In this document: positions 22,725 through 39,761 of the stretch, piece after piece
How the letters are laid out: every line of letters starts with the position of its first letter
How positions within the stretch are numbered: position 1 is the stretch's first letter
From: Gloeobacter morelensis MG652769
GTDB lineage: Bacteria; Cyanobacteriota; Cyanobacteriia; Gloeobacterales; Gloeobacteraceae
Assembly (NCBI RefSeq): GCF_021018745.1
Contig: NZ_CP063845.1
Location: 3,658,001-3,722,000 of the forward strand
Length of the DNA: 64,000 nt
Reading direction: 5' to 3'
The notes under the pieces: model-generated
Told to the model about the DNA's origin: nothing
Database searches by the model: none
The model's input: the letters and a program-made list of their open reading frames with translations, nothing else
Position numbers and translations under genes: made by a program

Positions 22725-23135
22725 TTAATCAGGTGCATCCTGTCCTTCAATATATTTACGAAGAATTGAAACTGTTACTCCGCCACAAGATGCAATGAAG
22801 TAAGATTCATTCCAAAGCACATTCTTCCAATAAACCTTTTCGATAGCGTCCGCAAATTCTGTACGAATCCTACGACTGGTTACGGATTTAAGATTGCCGA
22901 TGAACTTGGGCAACTCCATCTGCGGCAAGTATTGAAAAAGCAAATGGACATGATTATCCTCGCCATTCAACTCAATCAATTTACAATCCCACTTTTCACA
23001 TAAGTCACTCATGATTTCACCTGGCCGGGCAAGTATTGCACCTGAAAGCACTCCACGGCGATATTTTGTAGTGAGAACCAAGTGGGCTTTCATGTCTGAC
23101 ACGCATCGACCGCTAGAGACAAAATCGTTTTTCAT
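22725..23135 (-). CDS. tnpA: IS200/IS605-type Y1 transposase TnpA
   Basis: I chose the ATG at 23135 (MKNDFVSSGRCVSDMKAHLVLTTKYRRGV) as the start, which matches the family N-terminus; an upstream in-frame start at 23168 would read into the neighbouring IS. The 136-residue protein shows the HUH motif in GEDNHVHLLFQY and the nucleophilic tyrosine region SILRKYIEGQ. TnpA excises and inserts single-stranded DNA circles. All catalytic residues seem present. GC content is much lower than in the surroundings. Confidence 0.92.
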   Translation of the reverse strand: MKNDFVSSGRCVSDMKAHLVLTTKYRRGVLSGAILARPGEIMSDLCEKWDCKLIELNGEDNHVHLLFQYLPQMELPKFIGNLKSVTSRRIRTEFADAIEKVYWKNVLWNESYFIASCGGVTVSILRKYIEGQDAPD

Positions 23136-23184
23136 ATAATCAGCGTAGCATTTTCTACCTACGTTCAAGGGGTGACAGACAAGG

Positions 23185-24336
23185 CTACGTGACGCTCAGC
23201 ATCAACCTTGCAGCCCGCAACCCGCGTCGACAGTCCCGGGCTTTGTTCCTACAGGTGTCTATCAAATTGTCGAGCCAGTCACCCAAACCCAGCACCGCCT
23301 GTGCCCAGTGCCAAGCGTACTGGCCAACCCGAAAAGGGCTGTGACGCCGCAAGCGTCGCTGCTTTTCTTGAACCCTGCCGGTGTACTTGTCCACCCCTAT
23401 TCGCTCCAGTTGCAGACCGTTGAGCATCGCTGCACTCCAGGCAATCGATGCTAACAACAGTACCCGCATCATCCGTTCCTGACTGACGCGTACTTCTTCA
23501 AGATGGTAGCCACAGGATTTGACGTCTTTGTGCCAAACTTCGATTCCCCAACGGTCAGCATACAGCTCAAGTGCTTCGTGTAACTTTGGCCGGTCTGTCA
23601 AAATATACCAGCCTTCACCCGGTTGCATATTCCGGATTTTTCGTTTCCAGATACAAGCAATATTGAACGGCTCGAATCCCTTGTTTTTACGATTTTTGGT
23701 GACGCGCACTCCGCCAAGAAACATCGACATTCCAGGTTGTAGTTCCAAAGACTTTAGCGAGCGAAAGTCTGCACCTTGTTGTCGAATATATTCACTGATT
23801 TTTAATCTCAAGCAAAAGCCGGCCTTTCGACTGCGCAACCAATTGGCCAGCTTGACACTGCAAAACTCTCTGTCCCCCAACACCACGACGCGATAGGCAG
23901 AAAGTAGAGACAGAACCGGTGAGAGTAACAGTTGTTGGTCTTCGAGGTTACTGTTGCCAGGATGGTCGAGCAAGGTCCAATTGAGTGGCAAGGCATGTCT
24001 ATGCCACACCAGGGCCACTGTCAGCACGTTGTAGTGCCACCAGTCGGTGCGGTCGATCGCCAGTTTGAGTGTGGTTGTCTTGGAAAAGTGGGTCAGTACC
24101 AGGTACAAAACCAATGGGAACCAAGCCTCGAAAATATTGAGTTTGTCGAGGGTGAGAAAGCGTTGGAGAGCGCGCTTGCGACTGTCGGCAGTGATCGGCA
24201 GCGGCAGTGCCTGGGAGAGTTTGCCCAAGGCGAGCTGTTTGTGGGTTTGCAAAGTGGCGACAAGCAAATGCAAAAACAGAGACTGTCGCGCAGTGAGCAG
24301 GTGTGCGAAGAAGGTCTGGTAGAATGCAGGCATCAT
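23185..24336 (-). CDS. IS4-family DDE transposase
   Basis: The protein from the ATG at 24336 has 383 residues (an ATG at 24375 lies inside a hairpin, see 24348-24375). It shows the IS4 layout: LKLAIDRTDWWHYNVLTVALVW with the first catalytic Asp, VVLGDREFCSVKLANWL with the second, and the Y-(2)-R-(3)-E-(6)-K signature as YADRWGIEVWHKDVKS. The catalytic set appears complete, so the element may still move. It ends 6 bases inside the left inverted repeat region. Confidence 0.9.
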   Translation of the reverse strand: MMPAFYQTFFAHLLTARQSLFLHLLVATLQTHKQLALGKLSQALPLPITADSRKRALQRFLTLDKLNIFEAWFPLVLYLVLTHFSKTTTLKLAIDRTDWWHYNVLTVALVWHRHALPLNWTLLDHPGNSNLEDQQLLLSPVLSLLSAYRVVVLGDREFCSVKLANWLRSRKAGFCLRLKISEYIRQQGADFRSLKSLELQPGMSMFLGGVRVTKNRKNKGFEPFNIACIWKRKIRNMQPGEGWYILTDRPKLHEALELYADRWGIEVWHKDVKSCGYHLEEVRVSQERMMRVLLLASIAWSAAMLNGLQLERIGVDKYTGRVQEKQRRLRRHSPFRVGQYAWHWAQAVLGLGDWLDNLIDTCRNKARDCRRGLRAARLMLSVT

Positions 24337-24347
24337 TGTTTTTTTGG

Positions 24348-24375
24348 ATGGACTTGGGCGACATCCCAAGTCCAT
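24348..24375 (-). other. Hairpin over the upstream start of the IS4 transposase
   Basis: ATGGACTTGGG-CGACAT-CCCAAGTCCAT is an 11-bp perfect inverted repeat. It covers the upstream ATG and lies just before the better start at 24336. Hairpins at this place in insertion sequences are known to limit translation from transcripts that read in from outside. Confidence 0.5.
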
Positions 24376-24440
24376 TTTCCTATGTAGCGATGCCTGGAAT
24401 GCTTGTCCAGTCCGGTTTGTGAGCTACTCTGTCACCCCTT

Positions 24441-25106
24441 GAAGTTCCAACCATTAACCCCAACATTGATATTGAGAAGTCTGTAGGGATTGACCTCGGC
24501 TTAAAAGATTTTCTCGTGACTGGCGATGGTCTATATGTTCCCATCCCCCAATACTATCGTAAAGCCCAAAAGCGATTGACAAAAGAACAGCGCAAGCTCG
24601 CGCATAAAAAGAACAAAGCCAGTAAACGTAGAGCTAAACAGGTTCGCAAAGTTGCCAAGCTTCACGCCAAGATAGCAAGGCAAAGGAAAGAGTTTCATCA
24701 CAAGACAGCAGTTTTACTGTTGCGAAAATACGAGGTTATTGCTCATGAGAACTTAAACATTAAAGGTTTGGCGAGAACTCGTCTTGCCAAATCTGTGCAT
24801 GATGCTGGATGGGGAACATTCATCACAATCTTGGCAAACAAAGCTGAAAAAGCTGGGTGCTTAACGATTGGTGTGAATCCATCTGGTACGACGCAAATGT
24901 GTTCCGATTGCGATGCTCATGTTCCCAAAACTCTAAGCGACAGATGGCATGCTTGCCCCGATTGCAGCTTGGAATTGCATAGGGATGAGAATTCAGGTCG
25001 GAACATGTTGAAAAAGGCGGAGGGTCATCCCGTCTTTAAAGCTCGTGGAGTCCGAAGCACTAGCTGGACTATGAAGCGAGAAGCCCGCCCTCTATCCGCG
25101 GGATGA
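24441..25106 (+). pseudogene. tnpB: TnpB (IS605) remnant lacking its N-terminal half
   Basis: The frame is open from the IS4 end (EVPTINPNIDIEKSVGIDLGLKDF) to the stop at 25106. The RuvC residues are visible: Asp in GIDLGLKDF, Glu in YEVIAHENLNI and Asp in ELHRDENSGRN. The zinc ribbon is CSDC...CPDC. The N-terminal about 180-200 residues (REC/WED part of TnpB) are absent, so RNA-guided nuclease activity is not expected. A shorter internal ATG start at 24516 would lose the first RuvC Asp. The 3' end and the right end are preserved, which is where TnpB guide RNA is normally encoded. Confidence 0.85.
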
Positions 25107-25126: not shown

Positions 25127-25648
25127 CTATTCTTTCGCCGTTGAGCCGGGTACTGCCCTGAGTGGCGAGAAACTGGATCCCTCAACTCGGTGCACCGCGA
25201 CGAAGCCTTCGGCAAGGACAGGTGGAAAGCGTTCGATCTCCCTTGCCATGGCGCGGATCACCTCCGGCGGCACCTGGCGCTCGCGCTGGGCGTTGCGCGC
25301 GAGGCACTCTTCAACGGGAACCACCAGTTGCCACGCCACCCACTGCACATTTGGATAGACGGCCATCTGCTGCAAAAACGCGAGTCGCCAGGACCGTTTG
25401 GCGTTGGTGGCGTCGTAGATCACCGGCCTGCCGGAGCGAAAGGCGTTGTGTACCCTGAAGAGTACTTCCCGTTCGATAGCCGTCCATTGCCCCTGTATAC
25501 GTGCATCTCCGTACAGTTCGGCACGGATCTGATCGGTGGACACGACGCATAAAGCAGGGTCGCGCTCGGCCAGGTAAACGGCCAGGGTGCTCTTGCCCGC
25601 CGCCGGTGGCGCAACCAGCAGGTAGCAAGTCAGTACCGGCAAGATCAT
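25127..25648 (-). CDS. P-loop kinase, T4 polynucleotide-kinase-like
   Basis: The ATG at 25648 follows GAGAAGG closely and starts MILPVLTCYLLVAPPAAGKSTLA, with Walker A as APPAAGKST near residue 14. VVSTDQIRAELYGDA, GRPVIYDATNAKRSWR and RNAQRERQVPPEVI are typical of the T4 Pnk-like kinase family (AAA_33). This group phosphorylates 5' ends of nucleic acids or small molecules. No phosphatase or ligase domain is attached. An upstream extension to 25738 reads through a long palindrome and is unlikely. Whether it serves the neighbouring CRISPR locus is open. Confidence 0.7.
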   Translation of the reverse strand: MILPVLTCYLLVAPPAAGKSTLAVYLAERDPALCVVSTDQIRAELYGDARIQGQWTAIEREVLFRVHNAFRSGRPVIYDATNAKRSWRLAFLQQMAVYPNVQWVAWQLVVPVEECLARNAQRERQVPPEVIRAMAREIERFPPVLAEGFVAVHRVEGSSFSPLRAVPGSTAKE

Positions 25649-25697
25649 CCTTCTCAACCAGGACGGCAACACTTTAGCAAGAGAGCCCTCACCCCCG

Positions 25698-25723
25698 GCC
25701 CCTCTCCCCTCGAGGGGAGAGGG
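25698..25723. repeat. 26-bp perfect palindrome
   Basis: The sequence CCCCTCTCCCCTC followed by its exact complement can form a 13-bp GC-rich stem. It lies between the kinase gene and the CRISPR trailer and resembles REP-type intergenic repeats or a terminator without a T-run. Confidence 0.7.
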
Positions 25724-25776
25724 GTGGCAGTGGCTCAACGTCCGGTTTTCAGGATCGCCGTGCGGCTGGCTTTGCT

Positions 25777-25803: not shown

Positions 25804-25816
25804 CTGGGGGGATGAG

Positions 25817-28800
25817 GGTTCCTCAGAATCGCTTCTGCACTGAAGAGCACACATGAGGGACATCAGTTTGCAAGAACTGGTGTCATTCAGAGGGTTTCCA
25901 ACAAATCGCTCCTGCACTGAAGAGCACACTTGGTGGATTCTTTCGTCGATGAGCAGCTTGCTGCAGAAGTTTCCAACTAATCGCTCCCGCACTGAAGAGC
26001 GCACCGGAGCTTCTGGGGAGGTTGGAGAATTCTCAAACTGTACAGACGGTTTCCAGCTAATCGCTCCCGCACTGAAGAGCGCACAGTACTCGACTTCTGG
26101 GGGGCATTCTTTGGTCATGGCGAGTTTCCAACTAATCGCTCCCGCACTGAAGAGCGCACAAAGCCAAACGAACTCACCCCGGCGCGGCGCGGCAACTCGC
26201 CGCCCGGCTGCACCCAGGGTTTCCAACTAATCGCTCCCGCACTGAAGAGCGCACCCGACGAGCAGCGTGTGATCGATGCTGTCGGTCTTGAATTTGCCGT
26301 TTCCAACTAATCGCTCCCGCACTGAAGAGCGCACTCTATCAGAGGTTGGTGACGCAGTTACCGGTTTCCAGGGATGTTTCCAACTAATCGCTCCCGCACT
26401 GAAGAGCGCACGCGCCGATTTAGCCCGCGCGAACCTGACCGGTGCCGATCTGTTTCCAACTAATCGCTCCCGCACTGAAGAGCGCACCTGAATTTATCTG
26501 GCCACCCAAACAAAGGCCTAGAAGAACTGGTTTCCAACTAATCGCTCCCGCACTGAAGAGCGCACAAATCGGCGCCGACCAGTTTCGCCCCGACCAGTTT
26601 CGCGTGTTTCCAACTAATCGCTCCCGCACTGAAGAGCGCACTAGCCAAGCGGATTGCTTGACATCAAGAGAAGCCCCCGAAACGGTTTCCAACTAATCGC
26701 TCCCGCACTGAAGAGCGCACCTGGCTGACGGAAAACTGGCCGGGGCGAACCTGTGGGGTTTCCAACTAATCGCTCCCGCACTGAAGAGCGCACCCGATCT
26801 GGCCGGGGCGAACCGGGAATAGAATCTGTCGCACCCTTGCAAGTTTCCAACTAATCGCTCCCGCACTGAAGAGCGCACTTCCAGATCATGGGAGATAACT
26901 TCAAGATCTGCGGGTGGTTTCCAACTAATCGCTCCCGCACTGAAGAGCGCACTGGACTCCGTCAGAATGGATGAGCTACTTGAAGCCATCGCGTACGTTT
27001 CCAACTAATCGCTCCCGCACTGAAGAGCGCACCGTGAAAGCTGCGCTTTGGCCGCTCAAGCCTCCCAGGCAGGGAGGTTTCCAACTAATCGCTCCCGCAC
27101 TGAAGAGCGCACTCGCCCTAACCTGATCGCGTTTTGCGAGTTTATCAAGCGTTTCCAACTAATCGCTCCCGCACTGAAGAGCGCACAGGTCGACGTGCAG
27201 CGCGCCGGGGAACACGAAGCCCAGCTCGTTTCCAACTAATCGCTCCCGCACTGAAGAGCGCACATATTTCACAATCCATACTATTCTCAATATCACTCTC
27301 TTCTTGTTTCCAACTAATCGCTCCCGCACTGAAGAGCGCACGCGCCGATTTAGCCCGCGCGAACCTGACCGGTGCCGATCTGTTTCCAACTAATCGCTCC
27401 CGCACTGAAGAGCGCACCTGACCCGCGCGAAGCTGGCAGGCGCGAACCTCACGGTCGGTTTCCAACTAATCGCTCCCGCACTGAAGAGCGCACCCAACCT
27501 CACCGGCGCAAAGCTGGCAGGCGCCAACCTCACGGTCGCCAACCTGTTTCCAACTAATCGCTCCCGCACTGAAGAGCGCACCCGGGCGGTGTTCGCCCCA
27601 GAGGATCTCGTCGTGGTTGTTTCCAACTAATCGCTCCCGCACTGAAGAGCGCACTGCTCGAAGTGCGGTCAAGACGCTGCTACAATCAGGCATGTTTCCA
27701 ACTAATCGCTCCCGCACTGAAGAGCGCACCTTAATGCCTATGGCTCGATTTACAACAGACCCTCTGCCGTTTCCAACTAATCGCTCCCGCACTGAAGAGC
27801 GCACAGCTGAGTTGTGGGAGTTGTTCTTCCACTGGGCATCAGGCAAGTTTCCAACTAATCGCTCCCGCACTGAAGAGCGCACACCCACGGCGAAGCAGGC
27901 CGCCCGGCCAACCTGGCGGAGGCGTTTCCAACTAATCGCTCCCGCACTGAAGAGCGCACCTGCCTTGAACACTTTTTGGGCTGCTCTTATAAGGCCAGAG
28001 GATGTTTCCAACTAATCGCTCCCGCACTGAAGAGCGCACGTAATGAGCCGCCCGCGCTACCCGAGCGACGACAAACAGCGCGAGTACCGCGCCGCCCACG
28101 AACTGCGGGTTTCCAACTAATCGCTCCCGCACTGAAGAGCGCACTCAGAAGCGTCGTCGCCATCGCCGTCCATGCGCCAGAGCTGGGTTTCCAACTAATC
28201 GCTCCCGCACTGAAGAGCGCACCGAGGGCCTGAGCTAGTACCCGTGAGGATCTCTCAAGTCTTTGCTCGAAGGTTTCCAACTAATCGCTCCCGCACTGAA
28301 GAGCGCACCCTCGACATTGAGGAGTTGATCGATCCCGATCCCATCGGGTTTCCAACTAATCGCTCCCGCACTGAAGAGCGCACGCGCCGAGTACGCCCAA
28401 TCGGAGGTGCAGGCCATCCTCGATGAACTGGAGGTTTCCAACTAATCGCTCCCGCACTGAAGAGCGCACTCCGACGATGGGCTGGGGGCTGATGATCTCT
28501 ACCAGGGTTTTCAACTAATCGCTCCCGCACTGAAGAGCGCACAGCCAAGGTCAAGGCCGATACGGAGCTCCAAAAGCGCATTCAGGTTTCCAACTAATCG
28601 CTCCCGCACTGAAGAGCGCACTTGATGCCAACGTCAGCGCGGGAGTATTCCGATGACCTATTCGGTTTCCAACTAATCGCTCCCGCACTGAAGAGCGCAC
28701 ACTTTCATGCCGTAGACAATGCCCAAGTCAAAGGAGGTTTCCAACTAATCGCTCCCGCACTGAAGAGCGCACCTCCCTGCTGAACAATCGAGGCAGATAA

Positions 28801-29376
28801 AAGGTTTTAGGTTTCCAACTAATCGCTCCCGCACTGAAGAGCGCACTGGTAGCTAAGGCTTACCGTGAGGGCTTCAATGCCCGCATTGTTTCCAACTAAT
28901 CGCTCCCGCACTGAAGAGCGCACCGGAGGGGGGAAGACCGGCGCGCGCCGAGAATAAAAGTTTCCAACTAATCGCTCCCGCACTGAAGAGCGCACGCAAA
29001 AGGAACTTGAGAACTTGCAGAAGCGGCTGCTCAGTTTCCAACTAATCGCTCCCGCACTGAAGAGCGCACCCCACTGACCGATCTTGACAACAAGTTGGCG
29101 GAGTCGTGTTTCCAACTAATCGCTCCCGCACTGAAGAGCGCACACTGATGGGCTCTACTAAGGCGTTTGAATTCAGCCAATCTAAGTTTCCAACTAATCG
29201 CTCCCGCACTGAAGAGCGCACGGCGAACCTGGCCGGGGCTGACCTGACCGGGGCTGATTTGACGTTTCCAACTAATCGCTCCCGCACTGAAGAGCGCACG
29301 CCGTAATCCATGGCCTGACCGGCCAGTTCCCACTGGTCATGTTTCCAACTAATCGCTCCCGCACTGAAGAGCGCAC
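25817..29376 (-). CRISPR. CRISPR array, 46 repeats of 36 bp and 45 spacers
   Basis: On the plus strand the repeat starts GTTTCCAACTAATCGC and ends GAAGAGCGCAC, 36 bases. I count 46 copies. The first two (25817-25852, 25894-25929) are degenerate and a third (26049) and one at 28507 have single changes, so the left end is the old trailer end and the leader is on the right, next to cas2. Transcription is therefore predicted from the minus strand, where the repeat ends TTGGAAAC and can form a CGCTC/GAGCG stem. Most spacers are 36-44 nt. Outliers are 59 nt (26160-26218), 52 nt (27494-27545) and 69 nt (28040-28108). One 40-nt spacer occurs twice (26412-26451 and 27342-27381). Confidence 0.97.
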
Positions 29377-29572
29377 AGCGACCAGTGTAGTCCAATCCCA
29401 GAGCAGTTTCCAGGAGAAGGATGCGACGATCTCTTTGCATCGGGCAGAGTCCTGAGAAGCATTTGTATGTTTGGAAAGGCTCAAAGCCTTGTGCTGCAAT
29501 GGATCGACGACCTCTACGAGAAACCGGCACTGCAGAGGGTGGGCGGAGATCGTCGAGGGCGGAAAGTTAGTG
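29377..29572 (-). promoter_or_regulatory. Probable CRISPR leader
   Basis: These 196 bases lie between the last perfect repeat and the cas2 stop, at the side where repeats are not degenerate. They hold no convincing gene. A 7-base match to the repeat start (GTTTCCA) occurs at 29406-29412. I see no strong -10/-35 pair, so the array may be co-transcribed with cas1-cas2 or use a weak promoter here. Confidence 0.6.
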
Positions 29573-29848
29573 TCAAACAACGATGTAGTCCGGCGCTTTG
29601 TAAGGTTCATCGCCACCGTAGACGACGATTTTGGGACGGGAATTTTCGATGAGCGGATAGCACCTCAGCGAGTCTTCGGGGAGTTGCAAGAGCTTGACCA
29701 GTCTGGATTTGAGCTGTTGAAACTTCTCGTCGTCCAGATCGCACTCAAATACGCTGTACTGGACTCTTTTGCCGTAGCCGAGCAGCAACTTCGCGATTTT
29801 ATTGCGCCGTTTGGTGACAGGAATGTCGTACGCGACGAGCCAGAGCAT
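29573..29848 (-). CDS. cas2: Cas2, spacer-integration partner of Cas1
   Basis: The ATG at 29848 lies 2 bases after the cas1 stop and gives 91 residues, a normal Cas2 length. The protein starts MLWLVAYDIPVTKRRNKIAKLL, with the conserved Asp in AYDI at the end of strand one, followed by YGKRVQYSVFECDL. Cas2 dimers bridge two Cas1 dimers during spacer acquisition. The upstream in-frame extension to 29935 overlaps cas1 and is not needed. Confidence 0.95.
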   Translation of the reverse strand: MLWLVAYDIPVTKRRNKIAKLLLGYGKRVQYSVFECDLDDEKFQQLKSRLVKLLQLPEDSLRCYPLIENSRPKIVVYGGDEPYKAPDYIVV

Positions 29849-29850
29849 GG

Positions 29851-30843
29851 TCAGCGGATGCGGTAGGCAACCAGTTCTTGATTGCGGTAAAGACTGTCGC
29901 GGTAGGTGCGCACGGCCCAGTCCAACAGTTCCCAACGATACCCCTCGCGCTCATTGGGCAATTGAATGGTTTGTGCCATGTACTGCTCGAATTGGGCAAT
30001 CACCAAACGGCGACCGACGTCTCCCAGGTAGCAGCTTCCCTGAACATAGTCGAAGTGCGATTCGTCCAGCATGCGGCGGTTGATCAGCGTGATCACCAGC
30101 GAATCGACAATCGGAGCGCGAAAGGGCTCGATTAAATCGGAAATCAAAGCCAGATGGCCGTCGTCCAGGGCGTGCAGATGAGCCGGATACGGATCGAGGC
30201 CGTAAACTTCCACGACTGCCCGCAGATGGTTCCAAAGCAGACTGTAGCCAAAACTCAGCAGCGCGTTGACTGGGTTGGTGGGCGGGCGGCGGACGCGCTC
30301 GACCAGGCGAAAGCGCCCATCTTGCAACTGCCGCCCAAAAGCCGGAAAGTATTGGGCCGCCGCCGCACCCTCCAGACCGAACAGTTGCTGTACCGAGTTC
30401 GCCCGCACGACGCGCTCCTCCAGATAGGCCAGGATCTGTACAGCAAGCTCGTTTTCACTCACCGCCCGCCGCCGCTGCTGACGCATCAAGAGCACCCGCT
30501 GGTTGTGGATTTTGGCAGCCACCAGCGTGCGGGCGATGGCGAGCGAACAGCCTGGATCGCTGTTGGCCTGCCATTGCAAAAACCGCTGGCGGCTGCGGCC
30601 CGCAAAAGGTGCGCTCACGGTGCCGTAGAGCCAACCCTGCCGCGACAGATAGGCGGCAGGGATGCGGCGCACCAGACAGGTGCGCACGACGTCAGCTGTC
30701 AGGTGAATGCGGCCAAAAAGAAACAGCCGCTCGATTTGTGCAAGGGGAACCTGCCGCAACAGCCTTTGCTGCTGGGTAATCACCAGCTGTTCGGCCTGCT
30801 TGCCGACCTGGCTGCCCTGCTCCAACAGGTACAGGCTAGCCAC
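29851..30843 (-). CDS. cas1: Cas1 integrase
   Basis: I place the start at the GTG at 30843 because GGAGGGG stands directly in front of it; the protein then begins VASLYLLEQGSQVGKQAEQLVI (330 residues). The upstream open frame to 30966 has no Cas1-like sequence. Active-site candidates are the Glu in LFGLEGAAAAQYF, the His in DPYPAHLHALDDGHLAL and the Glu in DLIEPFRAP. The GTG overlaps by 8 bases the stop of the small membrane protein upstream, so translation is probably coupled. No fused reverse transcriptase or Cas4/Cas6 domain is present. Confidence 0.95.
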   Translation of the reverse strand: MASLYLLEQGSQVGKQAEQLVITQQQRLLRQVPLAQIERLFLFGRIHLTADVVRTCLVRRIPAAYLSRQGWLYGTVSAPFAGRSRQRFLQWQANSDPGCSLAIARTLVAAKIHNQRVLLMRQQRRRAVSENELAVQILAYLEERVVRANSVQQLFGLEGAAAAQYFPAFGRQLQDGRFRLVERVRRPPTNPVNALLSFGYSLLWNHLRAVVEVYGLDPYPAHLHALDDGHLALISDLIEPFRAPIVDSLVITLINRRMLDESHFDYVQGSCYLGDVGRRLVIAQFEQYMAQTIQLPNEREGYRWELLDWAVRTYRDSLYRNQELVAYRIR

Positions 30844-31063
30844 GACCCCTCCGAACGGGCAAAGGACCTCCACCCGCCAACAGCCAGCCCGCGATGCTGT
30901 CACCCACCAGGGCGACCCCGAGGCTGGAAAGGGCCACAAGCGCGGTGCAGGTGAGCACCGCCGCAAGACCCAAAGGGGCGATGAGCAAGATGACCAGCGT
31001 CACCAGCCCGTTGACGGCGGCGACGGCGAGACAGCGAAAAAAGACGAGGCGCTGGGGTTGCAT
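30836..31063 (-). CDS. Small two-TM membrane protein overlapping cas1
   Basis: The 75-residue product begins at the ATG at 31063, preceded by AGGAG at good spacing. Nearly all of it is hydrophobic: one segment at about residues 8-31 (LAVAAVNGLVTLVILLIAPLG) and a second at about 33-64, followed by a short Gly/Arg tail PVRRGRG. I recognise no family. Its stop (TAG at 30836) lies inside the first codons of cas1, and it is 68 bases downstream of the coiled-coil membrane protein gene, so it belongs to the same operon. A holin-like or membrane-anchoring role is speculation. Confidence 0.7.
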   Translation of the reverse strand: MQPQRLVFFRCLAVAAVNGLVTLVILLIAPLGLAAVLTCTALVALSSLGVALVGDSIAGWLLAGGGPLPVRRGRG

Positions 31064-31131
31064 GGCTTGCTCCTGGGGGCATTGGATGACATCGATGAAC
31101 TGGGACGGCTTGGGGGGAAGTGATGCACCGA

Positions 31132-32244
31132 TCAGTTGGATAGGTTGGAGTTGCTTTGGGCGGGCAATGGAAGGGGCTGCCCGGGCGGGGAGGGAGGCAG
31201 CGAAGCCAGGGTCTGCTCGTCGAGCTGCTCGATGGTCGTAGCGAACACTGCGTTGGCCCGAATGACGCCCTGGGCAGCCAGGCGCAACTGTTCCAACCGC
31301 TCGCGCTCCGTGTCGTTTTCGGCCTGCCGGTGCTGTTGCTCAGCCTGCTGGATGCGGATTTGCTCCTGCAACTGAGCGATAGCCTGCTGGGAGGCGGCAA
31401 GTTCCTCCCGGGCGCACTCAAGCTCCTGGCGGGTCCGTCTGCGCTCGGCTTCGACCCGCTCCGGCAGCAAATCCTGGTTGATGAGCCATTGCGCCTCAGC
31501 CATCGCCCGGTACATGCGGCCGTAGTGGTAGAACTGCTCGGGGATGTAGTAGCGCAAGGCCTCGTGGGTGGCCTTACCAAGGACGATGCCCAGGGTGATC
31601 AAGCTGGCTGCCAGGGTGGCGAGTTGCTTCAAGACCGGCGCGTCCGAAGGCAGGTACTGTGAAAGCAGATTGTAGAGGGCCGCCACATCCACTGCCCCCG
31701 CGGTGAGGCCAATCAACCCCCACAGCAGGCAGGTAAACCAGCCGTAGCGGCGCGACTCCGCCTCCAGAGGCAGCAAGGCCCGCAGGCGGGCACTTTGCCG
31801 GCTGTCCTGCAGCCGCTCGGCCGCTGCGAGCATCCCCCGCAACCGGCACCCGAGGTGAAAGGCGCTAAAGGCAGCGACAAAGGCTTTGACCGCTCCCCAG
31901 ACAAATAAGGCGGCGGTGAGCAGCGAGAGGGCCAGACCGAAGCCGCCGCGCAACGGCAAAGGCAAGACCCCGGCGATTACCTTGTTGAAGGCGACGGCGG
32001 TGATCAGCCCGCCGACCAGTGCCCCCAGCACACTCACCAACAGATGCCAGCGCCGGGCGGTAAACCAGCTGACCAGCCGGTAGGAGTCAGGATTTTTGCC
32101 CTGCTCACCAAACTCGTTGGCCAACTGCAAATATTCGGCGTAGAGCAACTGATCTTCCAGGCGAGGCTGGTCGCCTGCGGCCCCGGCGGGGGCGGAAGCC
32201 TCGGCTAATGCGCGGGTCTCGGAGGAGTGCATAGTTGTACTCAC
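31132..32244 (-). CDS. Four-TM membrane protein with C-terminal coiled coil, CRISPR-linked
   Basis: A GTG at 32244 or ATG at 32232 starts this protein of 366-370 residues; neither has a strong ribosome site. Hydrophobic segments lie at about residues 67-94, 100-128, 168-195 and 205-223. From about 260 to 325 the sequence is a charged Glu/Gln/Arg-rich coiled coil (ERVEAERRRTRQELEC, then QAIAQLQEQIRIQQAEQQ), ending with a Pro-rich tail. I recognise no named family. The gene begins 15 bases after the vWA lipoprotein stop and is followed by the small membrane protein and cas1-cas2, all on one strand. The coiled coil would face the cytoplasm if the N-terminus does. Confidence 0.75.
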   Translation of the reverse strand: MSTTMHSSETRALAEASAPAGAAGDQPRLEDQLLYAEYLQLANEFGEQGKNPDSYRLVSWFTARRWHLLVSVLGALVGGLITAVAFNKVIAGVLPLPLRGGFGLALSLLTAALFVWGAVKAFVAAFSAFHLGCRLRGMLAAAERLQDSRQSARLRALLPLEAESRRYGWFTCLLWGLIGLTAGAVDVAALYNLLSQYLPSDAPVLKQLATLAASLITLGIVLGKATHEALRYYIPEQFYHYGRMYRAMAEAQWLINQDLLPERVEAERRRTRQELECAREELAASQQAIAQLQEQIRIQQAEQQHRQAENDTERERLEQLRLAAQGVIRANAVFATTIEQLDEQTLASLPPSPPGQPLPLPAQSNSNLSN

Positions 32245-32259
32245 TGGTATGGGTAAATA

Positions 32260-32910
32260 TCAGGAAAGACCGGCCCGAAAGCGCTCCAGCGCATTGAGGT
32301 AGCAAGCGGGCGCTTCGTCGCGGCCACACAAGCTCAGGCGCTCGCCAAGGGCAGGGCGCAAAGCGCTATCGATCCGCTCGCGCCGCGGACCTTCAGGACC
32401 GACAAAAAGCACGAAGGTCCCCGTTCGGGCCGTCCGCTGCGCCCAACGCTGCAGATCGGGCTGGGGCATGTTGAGGGTGCCAGTGCCGCCTTCATCGGCG
32501 GCGTCGGTGAAGACGACCAGCAGGACCGTTGCCGCCGCGCGGGGGGCTCCAGGGCGCTCCTCAACAAACTGCAGACCGCGCTCCAGAGCGCCTCCCAGAC
32601 TGGTGCCGCGCTCCTGCGGCAGGGTGCGGCCGAGCGAAGCAAGCAACCGGTCAAAAGCGTCCGGCTCGGGGTGCACCGCATCGGTGAGGGGGTAGAGGTT
32701 TTGTCCTAGGCGAAACACCTGCACGGTGTCCTCGCCATCCAGGTTCAGATAGATGAGCCGGGCCGCGTCAGCCAGGTAGCGGTGGATGCTGCGGGTGCTT
32801 TGCGAGTTGTCGAAAAACATCGCCACCCGCAAAGTCGGGGCGGGCGCGCAGGCGGTGACGGCGAGCACAACCGCGCCGATGAGCAGGGCAAAACCCGTCG
32901 GTCTGGACAT
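32260..32910 (-). CDS. vWA-domain lipoprotein, CRISPR-linked
   Basis: The ATG at 32910 is preceded by AGGAGG eight bases upstream. The 216-residue protein has a lipoprotein signal with lipobox LAVTAC (Cys21). A von Willebrand factor A domain fills the rest and has a complete MIDAS metal site: DNSQS at residues 34-38 (DxSxS), Thr in ERGTSLGGAL and Asp in VVFTDAADEG. vWA domains bind partner proteins through a metal ion. It is the first gene of the run that leads to cas1-cas2, and a perfect inverted repeat lies 175 bases upstream. No published link of such a protein to CRISPR comes to my mind, and its role here is unknown. Confidence 0.8.
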   Translation of the reverse strand: MSRPTGFALLIGAVVLAVTACAPAPTLRVAMFFDNSQSTRSIHRYLADAARLIYLNLDGEDTVQVFRLGQNLYPLTDAVHPEPDAFDRLLASLGRTLPQERGTSLGGALERGLQFVEERPGAPRAAATVLLVVFTDAADEGGTGTLNMPQPDLQRWAQRTARTGTFVLFVGPEGPRRERIDSALRPALGERLSLCGRDEAPACYLNALERFRAGLS

Positions 32911-33084
32911 GACAAATTCCTCCTGACGCCTGCGCGTGGATAGATCAGGAAGCGCAGCGGCCTCCGGGTGATTCAAAAGCTTTTCGATGGAACCGGTCGC
33001 CGTCGAGACGGCGGCCGGACGGGCTGGAACAGTCACCCTACGGCTAATACTATGGCATTTGGATTCAAGATGCAACTAGCAGTT

Positions 33085-33117
33085 TTGTAATTTATAAATT
33101 AATTACAAGGGTAATTG
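33085..33117. promoter_or_regulatory. Inverted-repeat operator candidate between the WYL gene and the lipoprotein-cas operon
   Basis: TTGTAATT-8 bases-AATTACAA is a perfect inverted repeat at 33085-33108. Read on the minus strand, its right half continues as CAATTACCCTTGTAATT. This AATT/CCCTTGTAAT motif recurs at 34096-34112 upstream of the WYL gene. AT-rich sequence around it contrasts with the GC-rich genes. I infer a WYL binding site and the operon promoter. Confidence 0.5.
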
Positions 33118-33149
33118 CCGTTTAATTTTGGAGTTTAACCAAATTCGGC

Positions 33150-34022
33150 TCAGCCGGCCGGGTGGATGGACAGGCCGTAGCGGTAGGCAAGTTTGGCAAT
33201 CCGCTCGCGCAGGCGCTCGCGCAGGCTCTCTGGGGAGACGACGGCACAGTTTTCGCCGTGGGGAAAGATCTCGCGCAGGAACCAGAAAGAATTGCTCACA
33301 AAGCGGCGCACCAGCAACCGCCGCTCGCCGTCGTCCTCGATGAGCCTGGCGTCCTCCCCCGGCCTTCCCTGGTAAGCGTCCGCCAGATCCCCAAACAGGT
33401 GCATCTCGACGAGCACCCGGTCGAGGCCGGCGGTGCGCCACTCTCCCTGCTCGTCGGGCTTGACCTCGACGATTTTGTCGATGCGCAGCGAGCGGTTGTG
33501 GACTAGTTCGGCAATATCGCGGGTGCCAGGCTCCTCCACCCAACATTCCAGGTACTGATGCTTTTCTTTGAAGTCAATGTCGGCCCAGCGGACGGTCAAG
33601 TCGACCCGCCTACCGTTCGACTCTTCGTACAGCACGCGAAAAGGTAAATGATAAGTACAGCACTCTTCGAGCATCACCAGCCAGGGCGAATGGGGCCTGA
33701 CCGCTTGCTTCTGGAGGCGGGTGCGCTGCAAATTTCCCAGTTCGGGGCGCTCCAACAACAGTTCGCCCAACTGCTGGGCATCCTCCAGTTGACCGGCGTT
33801 GTTCAAAAACTCGAACGCGGCTGTCAGCGAACGCAGCCGCTCTTCGCTCCAGCGCGGTCTGGTGGTGACGGCGTACTGGCGGCGGGCAATCATCTCGACT
33901 AAGCGGGTGGCGTTGCCGCGCTTGCCCCAGCGCAACCCCAACTCCGCAGCCAGCTGTGAGAGCTTCTCGCGGTCGTCCTTCTGGATCGACAGGGTCGTCA
34001 TGTTCTGCGGATCTATCGCCAT
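33150..34022 (-). CDS. WYL-domain transcriptional regulator
   Basis: The 290-residue product starts at the ATG at 34022 (MTT at 34001 is possible). An N-terminal region (DREKLSQLAAELGLRWGKRGNATRLVEMI) looks like a small DNA-binding helix bundle. The WYL domain follows, with FRVLYEESNGRRVDLTVRWADIDFKEKHQYLECWVEE, and the C-terminal WCX-like part with REIFPHGENCAVVSPESLRERL. WYL proteins bind nucleic-acid-type ligands and often control CRISPR and other defence genes. A WYL repressor of a CRISPR locus has been described in Synechocystis. It is upstream of the lipoprotein-cas1-cas2 operon with 240 bases between. Confidence 0.82.
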   Translation of the reverse strand: MAIDPQNMTTLSIQKDDREKLSQLAAELGLRWGKRGNATRLVEMIARRQYAVTTRPRWSEERLRSLTAAFEFLNNAGQLEDAQQLGELLLERPELGNLQRTRLQKQAVRPHSPWLVMLEECCTYHLPFRVLYEESNGRRVDLTVRWADIDFKEKHQYLECWVEEPGTRDIAELVHNRSLRIDKIVEVKPDEQGEWRTAGLDRVLVEMHLFGDLADAYQGRPGEDARLIEDDGERRLLVRRFVSNSFWFLREIFPHGENCAVVSPESLRERLRERIAKLAYRYGLSIHPAG

Positions 34023-34218: not shown

Positions 34219-34353
34219 AAGATTGTCGATTGAGGGCGCAACTTTTGACGCTGAGCCCACCCGGCGATAGATGCATTGGGCCCCCGATGGCGCCACGGCG
34301 CTGTCCCGGCGGGGCTGCTGCGGAGTAAGGGGGCGCAGCAAGCACGACAGGAG

Positions 34354-38162: not shown

Positions 38163-38252
38163 TCTAGATGGGAAGCAGGCCGGGAATCGATACGTACTAC
38201 GGTACGATTCTGAATGCCTGCTCCAAAGTTTGCTGATGGCATCGCAGCACCC

Positions 38253-39761
38253 ATGTCCAACCCCAAAAAGATAAAAGCTTACGCGGTCCTTGATGGCGGC
38301 GGCGTCAAAGGCGCGGCGCTGGCGGGTTGTCTGGCCGCCGCCGAAGAGCGGGGTGTTGAATTTATTGGTTTTGGGGGCACCTCCGCGGGCAGTATCGTGG
38401 CCCTGCTCGCCTGCATCGGCTACAGCGGCAGCAAACTCAAGCAAATCATGACCGAAGAAGTCAAGTTCACCGACTTCCTGGACGACGCGGGCAAAAAGCT
38501 CAACAAACTCAAAGGCAAAATCGCCTCTGCGGAGACCGCCTGGCAGCCTGTCTCCGCTTTTTTCTACTGGCAGGTTTTTAACTCTTTTAAAAGGGAACTG
38601 GGTTTATACAATGCCCAGAAGCTCAAAGAATTTCTACTCCAAAAAATCAAATCTCAACTGCCTGCGCTGGAGTTGGAAGCCGATATTTCTTTCTACCAGT
38701 TAAATCAGCTGAAGCGTCCCCTACTCAAGATCGTCTCTTCGGATTTGCGAACCAAGGGACCGCTGGTCTACTCCGGTCAGGGCGGCGACGAGCAGAGCGG
38801 TTCTGTACTCGATGCTGTCCGCGCTTCGATGAGCTATCCGTTTGTTTTCAAACCGGTGCAAGTCAACGATCGCTATCTGGTGGACGGCGGTTTGAGCAGC
38901 AACCTGCCTGTTTTTCTCTTCGAGAAGGAACGCCGCGATGAACTCATCCCAGTGTTCGCCTTTGACCTGGTCGCCCCCCACAGCGAGCCCGGGCAGGAAT
39001 ACGGCATCAAACAGTTCGGGCTCGACATGATCTCTACGGCTCTCGAATCTAACGATTTTTTGATGCGCAAGGTGATTCCCAAGACCATCTACTACATTCC
39101 GGTGTCCATTCCCAAGGACATCGGTACCCTGGATTTTGGGCTTTCCAAAGAGAGGCGCATCGAACTGTACAACGCCGGATACGTGGCCACCACGACGTTT
39201 TTTAACAGCAACCTCCCCCAACTCGATCAGGCCACCACCTCCGTGGAAGCTTTGCAGGCGCTGTATATCCCGCCCACCATCGTCACCCCGCTGCTGATGG
39301 TGATTGCCCGGCAGTTCCAGGAACATACCGGTGCCACGAACGTGCGGGCGAACCTGATGCTGCCCACCGACCGGAGTACTCTGCTGGTTGTCTACCAGTT
39401 CGCAATGGACAACGACCCGGATAGCGATCTGGAGTTGCCCTTGGGTACCGGCTCCTGCGGCCGGGCCTGGCAGGAGCGCGACATTGTCGCCACCGACTTG
39501 CTGGCCGCCCGACAGGACGGGATGTCGAAAGCCCTGCAAAACCGGGTGCGGCGCGACCGCAAAGCCGTCCTCTCGGTGCCCATCTTCGAGTGGACCCCCA
39601 CCGCCCAGCCGCGCACCGAACTGGACCGCATCGGCGTTCTATCGGTGGATACCGACGCTTCCCTTGACGCTACCGGTTGGGTGCGAGAGCATAAAAGATA
39701 TGTCAACGACACAGCCCTCAGCTGGTCGGCGATCCTGGCGAAGCTTTTGGACAAGGGGTAA
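38253..39761 (+). CDS. Patatin-like phospholipase with a C-terminal GAF-like domain
   Basis: The ATG at 38253 (MSNPKKIKAYAVLDGGGVKG) fits best; an in-frame ATG at 38214 adds 13 residues. The N-terminal about 330 residues are a patatin lipase domain with oxyanion loop DGGGVKGAALAG, nucleophile motif GTSAGS and the Asp of the dyad in VDGGLSSNLP. The C-terminal 150 residues (RANLMLPTDRSTLLVVYQF, LPLGTGSCGRAWQERDIVATD, LDRIGVLSVDTD) read as a GAF domain, a ligand sensor fold. A patatin-GAF fusion suggests a lipase under small-molecule control. A small gene follows 5 bases later. Confidence 0.85.
   Translation: MSNPKKIKAYAVLDGGGVKGAALAGCLAAAEERGVEFIGFGGTSAGSIVALLACIGYSGSKLKQIMTEEVKFTDFLDDAGKKLNKLKGKIASAETAWQPVSAFFYWQVFNSFKRELGLYNAQKLKEFLLQKIKSQLPALELEADISFYQLNQLKRPLLKIVSSDLRTKGPLVYSGQGGDEQSGSVLDAVRASMSYPFVFKPVQVNDRYLVDGGLSSNLPVFLFEKERRDELIPVFAFDLVAPHSEPGQEYGIKQFGLDMISTALESNDFLMRKVIPKTIYYIPVSIPKDIGTLDFGLSKERRIELYNAGYVATTTFFNSNLPQLDQATTSVEALQALYIPPTIVTPLLMVIARQFQEHTGATNVRANLMLPTDRSTLLVVYQFAMDNDPDSDLELPLGTGSCGRAWQERDIVATDLLAARQDGMSKALQNRVRRDRKAVLSVPIFEWTPTAQPRTELDRIGVLSVDTDASLDATGWVREHKRYVNDTALSWSAILAKLLDKG

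Follow-up and report, generated by a model that had tools for sequence, protein, structure and literature searches.

Two envelope genes stand ahead of a CRISPR adaptation operon in Gloeobacter morelensis MG652769, and the locus raises the question of whether this pair, a vWA lipoprotein and a four-transmembrane (four-TM) protein, serves spacer uptake or only shares the operon. We analyzed a window of 64,000 nucleotides, corresponding to bases 3658001-3722000 of the 4,921,229-bp chromosome (assembly, 5,102,396 bp in three contigs). On the minus strand, the gene order is vWA lipoprotein, four-TM/coiled-coil protein, Csx18, cas1, cas2 and a 46-repeat array, and a WYL regulator gene (P0006), which the initial annotation had passed over, lies directly upstream of the vWA gene. 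The features are as follows.

33150-34022, minus strand: WYL/WCX-domain regulator P0006 (Pfam WCX, 8.4e-9; PADLOC WYL, 1.8e-12; homologue loci)
32260-32910, minus strand: small vWA lipoprotein P0001 with a complete MIDAS (lipobox, MIDAS alignment, fold, profile E = 4.9e-13)
31132-32244, minus strand: four-TM protein P0002 with a C-terminal helix/coiled coil of about 145 residues (hydrophobic helices, model)
30836-31063, minus strand: csx18, encoding the two-TM, adaptation-associated Cas protein P0003 (NF040558, 9.2e-23; PADLOC Csx18, 3.3e-24)
29851-30843, minus strand: cas1, encoding P0004 (PF01867, 6.5e-83)
29573-29848, minus strand: cas2, encoding P0005 (PF09827, 5.8e-24)
29378-29572, minus strand: presumed leader in the interval between cas2 and the array, assigned from its position
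25816-29377, minus strand: CRISPR array of 46 repeats of GTGCGCTCTTCAGTGCGGGAGCGATTAGTTGGAAAC, with degeneracy at its far end (25816)

The gap between the vWA and four-TM genes is 15 nt with a GTG start at 32244, or 27 nt with an ATG start at 32232. The four-TM gene is separated from csx18 by 68 nt, csx18 overlaps cas1 by 8 nt, cas1 and cas2 are 2 nt apart, and the array ends about 195 nt from cas2. Our check of open reading frames and gaps agreed with the five-gene minus-strand order and spacing of the initial annotation. Codon usage indicated that the vWA, four-TM, cas1, cas2 and WYL genes are coding in the annotated frame and host-like, and the GC3 of the envelope pair equals that of host genes; csx18 is too short for a codon-usage call and is backed by its strong family match. 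No internal promoter or terminator was predicted from the vWA gene to cas1, which is weak evidence for a single transcript because the scan covered only the sigma-70 consensus. Together with the common strand and the short gaps, it makes co-transcription of the pair with csx18-cas1-cas2 plausible.

The csx18-cas1-cas2 module and its WYL regulator

We compared P0003 with NF040558 and obtained 79.9 bits against a curated cut-off of 50, which places the peptide in the Csx18 family. Of the 386 genomes sampled from the phylum, 48 carry csx18, and cas1 follows it directly at 41 of the 56 other csx18 loci. At the present locus, Cas1 and Cas2 families occur together with an array, csx18 adjoins cas1-cas2 through its 8-nt overlap, the E/H/D motif residues expected of Cas1 are preserved on visual inspection, and most array repeats are identical. 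The initial annotation was right in describing an adaptation operon with a small membrane peptide, but the module and its peptide are already known (NF040558; PADLOC "adaptation associated"). The locus shares with this known module a csx18 overlapping cas1, a cas2, an array and, as in many relatives, an upstream WYL-type gene. It differs in the two envelope genes ahead of csx18 and in the kind of WYL gene, which is of the type I-D kind here and of the CARF-WYL kind beside csx18 elsewhere. A literature search on Csx18 returned nothing relevant.

The genome carries three cas1 genes: the one at this locus, a second at 1.41 Mb in a type I-B locus (cas3, cas8b, cas7, cas5), and a third at 4.90 Mb with csx18 and a type III-B cmr operon as neighbors. 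Effectors for the array would presumably act in trans, for example from the type III-B operon. A scan of genome contigs with P0004 gave no match. The repeat GTGCGCTCTTCAGTGCGGGAGCGATTAGTTGGAAAC was not found in seven relatives with up to 3 mismatches allowed, and the idea that it is common to the other two arrays of the genome was tested and rejected, as all three arrays carry different repeats. The type I-B Cas1 lies within a 566-aa protein with a Cas4-like N-terminus (L093, 9308-11008), probably a Cas4-Cas1 fusion. In the present array, an identical 117-nt repeat-spacer stretch occurs twice (window 26375-26491 and 27305-27421). In all three arrays, several spacers show a 15-nt periodicity (GCC-AAC-CTG-like) of the sort that marks pentapeptide-repeat genes, which may therefore be the targets of some spacers.

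Full-length homologues of P0006, with 32-41% identity, occur across cyanobacteria; no NCBIfam model names the regulator family. We fetched 14 homologue loci (L217-L230), and at all 14 the adjacent genes include effectors of type I-D (cas3d or cas10d) or type I-B (cas8b), identifying P0006 as a CRISPR-associated WYL regulator of the type I-D/I-B kind. The view that the gene was not CRISPR-linked, based on homologues lying far from csx18, was overturned by this result. In Synechocystis, a type I-D system is under repression by the WYL protein Sll7009 (PMC10212523, PMC4012209), a possible counterpart of P0006. P0006 resembles Sll7009 as a WYL/WCX protein with homologues beside cas3d, cas10d or cas8b. 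Unlike in the Sll7009-like type I-D setting, no interference genes stand beside P0006, and the vWA and csx18 genes follow on the same strand; homologues of cas3d, cas10d and cas8b were absent from the window. Upstream of P0006 lie a YflT-domain gene and gcvP. The pairing of a type I-style WYL regulator and a csx18 adaptation module in one mixed CRISPR locus is a side result of this analysis.

The vWA lipoprotein family and the four-TM protein

P0001 comprises 216 aa with the lipobox VTAC, and its gene has the Shine-Dalgarno sequence AGGAGG. The MIDAS residues D34/S36/S38, T103 and D136 are invariant across the family alignment, and the AlphaFold model (pLDDT 80.5) shows a vWA fold with CMG2 as best match (E = 9e-9); Pfam VWA_2 gave 23.3 bits, just below its 27-bit cut-off. 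The complete MIDAS and the modelled fold place a vWA domain in P0001, and together with the lipobox they bear out the earlier description of a lipoprotein with a full-MIDAS vWA domain. No PADLOC defence family matched P0001.

The first relative of P0001 came from G070, a distantly related genome within the phylum, in which a vWA lipoprotein gene overlaps a four-TM gene by four bases; a second, unlinked vWA copy in that genome has a 619-residue TM/coiled-coil protein encoded 5 nt downstream. A search with a profile of seven sequences showed that the small anchored vWA family is near-universal in one family of small, non-photosynthetic genomes outside the photosynthetic class (f46), probably the Gastranaerophilales. 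A profile built without P0001 still found P0001 at E = 4.9e-13, indicating that family membership on the vWA side is firm. Among the matches listed, the only full-length one from the photosynthetic class came from this window; the other cyanobacterial matches listed, all weak, partial and within larger frames, were left out of the family. At all 22 script-readable loci of f46, the next gene after the vWA gene lies within 5-45 nt and has five to seven visible TM segments.

The pairs in f46 and G070 share with ours a vWA protein of 216-231 aa, an N-terminal anchor, the same MIDAS residues and a multi-TM gene directly after. They differ in their partners, which have 5-7 TM segments, are FHA-like or longer and are unrelated in sequence to P0002, and in having no CRISPR nearby. 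The cas1 gene was absent from 28 of the 31 vWA-bearing genomes tested, and none of the fetched vWA neighborhoods of relatives contained csx18, cas1, cas2 or the WYL gene. The association of the vWA/four-TM pair with cas1 drawn from this one locus was not found in other genomes. A conserved operon in f46 (L120-L124, L177-L206) encodes the anchored vWA protein, a multi-TM protein with an FHA-like N-terminus and then single-TM proteins with C-termini that we read as TonB-like. This operon is near-universal in f46 and apparently undescribed, as is the small anchored vWA family with its membrane partner, whose near-universal presence in one non-photosynthetic family is a further side result.

In line with the four-TM coiled-coil protein of the initial annotation, P0002 shows four hydrophobic helices, followed by a long C-terminal one at residues 203-347; its single-sequence model is weak overall (pLDDT 65). 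No homologue was found in the 386 genomes of the phylum, genome contigs, plasmids, phages or viral contigs. The best matches in the 386 genomes (E about 0.005) were rejected as chance matches to coiled-coil or short TM segments, Foldseek of the model returned unrelated helical bundles only (E above 0.2), and PADLOC gave only weak coiled-coil matches. By sequence, P0002 is an orphan. Neither BLASTP nor hhalign detected similarity between P0002 and the membrane partners elsewhere, which have only the topology class in common with it, so that the recurrence on the membrane side is one of architecture only.

Relation of the envelope pair to spacer uptake

We searched the 56 other csx18 loci with P0001, P0002 and the vWA profile and found no small anchored vWA protein and no P0002 homologue; the sole profile matches were weak, to proteins of 775 and 780 residues. 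The part of the initial annotation that made the pair a spacer-uptake module was not upheld by this result (0 of 56). Since vWA relatives occur elsewhere without CRISPR and the neighboring parts are known CRISPR parts, the pair seems to be a one-off insertion and not a new CRISPR mechanism. Sequence comparison makes it an unusual insertion in a single genome, with a vWA family that is CRISPR-independent elsewhere.

The explanation we favor, with a probability of roughly 65%, is a composite locus, in which a CRISPR-independent vWA/membrane pair, probably an envelope complex, has a WYL regulator on one side and a standard csx18-cas1-cas2 module on the other, is probably co-transcribed with that module and probably has no dedicated part in spacer uptake. 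After export, the vWA lipoprotein would be membrane-anchored and would grip a ligand through its MIDAS metal site. P0002 would sit in the inner membrane as its partner, with the coiled coil in the cytosol, and the two would act as an envelope complex of their own. Since the pair lies upstream of csx18-cas1-cas2 and on its strand, its transcription would run on into that module. An envelope complex with MIDAS-dependent ligand binding is what would commonly be expected of a vWA protein and its membrane partner. Against the composite locus, P0002 is unlike the partners elsewhere, the pair is flanked on both sides by CRISPR genes, is co-directional with cas1 and has host-like codon use, and vWA systems with TM proteins have been reported near CRISPR loci (PMC10910872).

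That position, between the WYL regulator and the cas genes, would also suit an independent anti-phage or stress-response envelope system in a defence island, with the WYL regulator common to it and CRISPR, and WYL proteins are reported to co-localize with defence genes (PMC9122601). We consider such a system unlikely, as PADLOC gave no defence match for P0001 and only the weak coiled-coil matches for P0002, and the vWA relatives occur in nearly all genomes of one bacterial family, beside TonB-like and FHA-like genes, which suggests a housekeeping envelope role. The vWA-MoxR-VMAP conflict systems do not provide a match, with no MoxR/AAA gene among the identified neighbors of the vWA gene.

Somewhat less likely again is that the pair is a true adaptation accessory which, with Csx18, tethers or regulates Cas1-Cas2 at the membrane and gates spacer uptake to phage entry. 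The co-directional layout with short gaps and no predicted internal promoter or terminator agrees with it, as do the two-TM nature of Csx18, itself dedicated to adaptation, and the CRISPR-type WYL regulator directly upstream. A large survey likewise reported TM proteins at adaptation modules and, in the vicinity of CRISPR loci, vWA-related systems that include transmembrane proteins, among them UAS-7, UAS-87 and UAS-91 (PMC10910872); our locus resembles these in placing vWA and transmembrane proteins beside CRISPR genes. The membrane effectors Cam1 and Csx23 of type III CRISPR are reported to be encoded beside cas genes as well (PMC10808066, PMC11014256). In contrast to them, P0001 and P0002 matched no CARF or other nucleotide-sensor family that would be fused to a TM region. 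An accessory role is opposed by the absence of the pair from all 56 other csx18 loci, the occurrence of the vWA family elsewhere without cas1, and the orphan status of P0002. Genome comparison lends support neither to this role nor to an independent defence role.

A more specific arrangement, which we regard as improbable and a little more doubtful than the accessory role at large, is a WYL-controlled operon in which the MIDAS lipoprotein, the coiled-coil membrane protein and Csx18 hold Cas1-Cas2 at the inner membrane of this thylakoid-less cyanobacterium, so that spacers come preferentially from entering DNA. If the pair did function in adaptation, spacer capture would be tied to the cell envelope; to our knowledge, this has not been shown for any CRISPR system. 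As the evidence stands, the locus matters less for CRISPR than for the vWA family and the mixed-locus side results.

Locus history and surroundings

We compared the block with a sister genome (G002) that is 94% identical over the flank. The results showed that window position 25306 is joined there through a few bases to position 34238, and the array, the cas genes, the envelope pair and the WYL gene are absent as a block. Same-flank stretches fetched from two further genomes (G001 and G003) gave no match to the block. At the far array end, the window encodes a P-loop kinase similar to the kinase portion of the bacterial polynucleotide kinase-phosphatase Pnkp (25127-25738, minus strand; 43.6 bits). 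The sister genome retains a 154-bp piece of this kinase gene at the deletion junction, and this remnant favors deletion in the sister genome over insertion here. The pair lies between CRISPR genes on both sides, is co-directional with cas1 and has host-like codon use, which indicates persistence at the locus and no very recent acquisition; its GC3, equal to that of host genes, likewise shows that it is not a fresh arrival.

A decaying remnant, in which the interference operon once under WYL control has been lost and has left the pair as an inert passenger, is very improbable: the lack of effector genes near the array in the window, the degenerate repeats at one array end, the loss of the block in the sister genome and the transposases beside the array are compatible with it, but every gene is intact and shows coding-like codon use, most repeats are identical, and cas1 keeps its E/H/D motif residues (by eye).

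Beside the array, window 22725-25106 contains an IS200-type transposase, an IS4-family transposase and a C-terminal TnpB fragment of 196 aa. Beyond gcvP, near the CRISPR block, window 38214-39761 (plus strand) encodes a patatin-like phospholipase with weak similarity to phospholipases of CBASS and other anti-phage systems.
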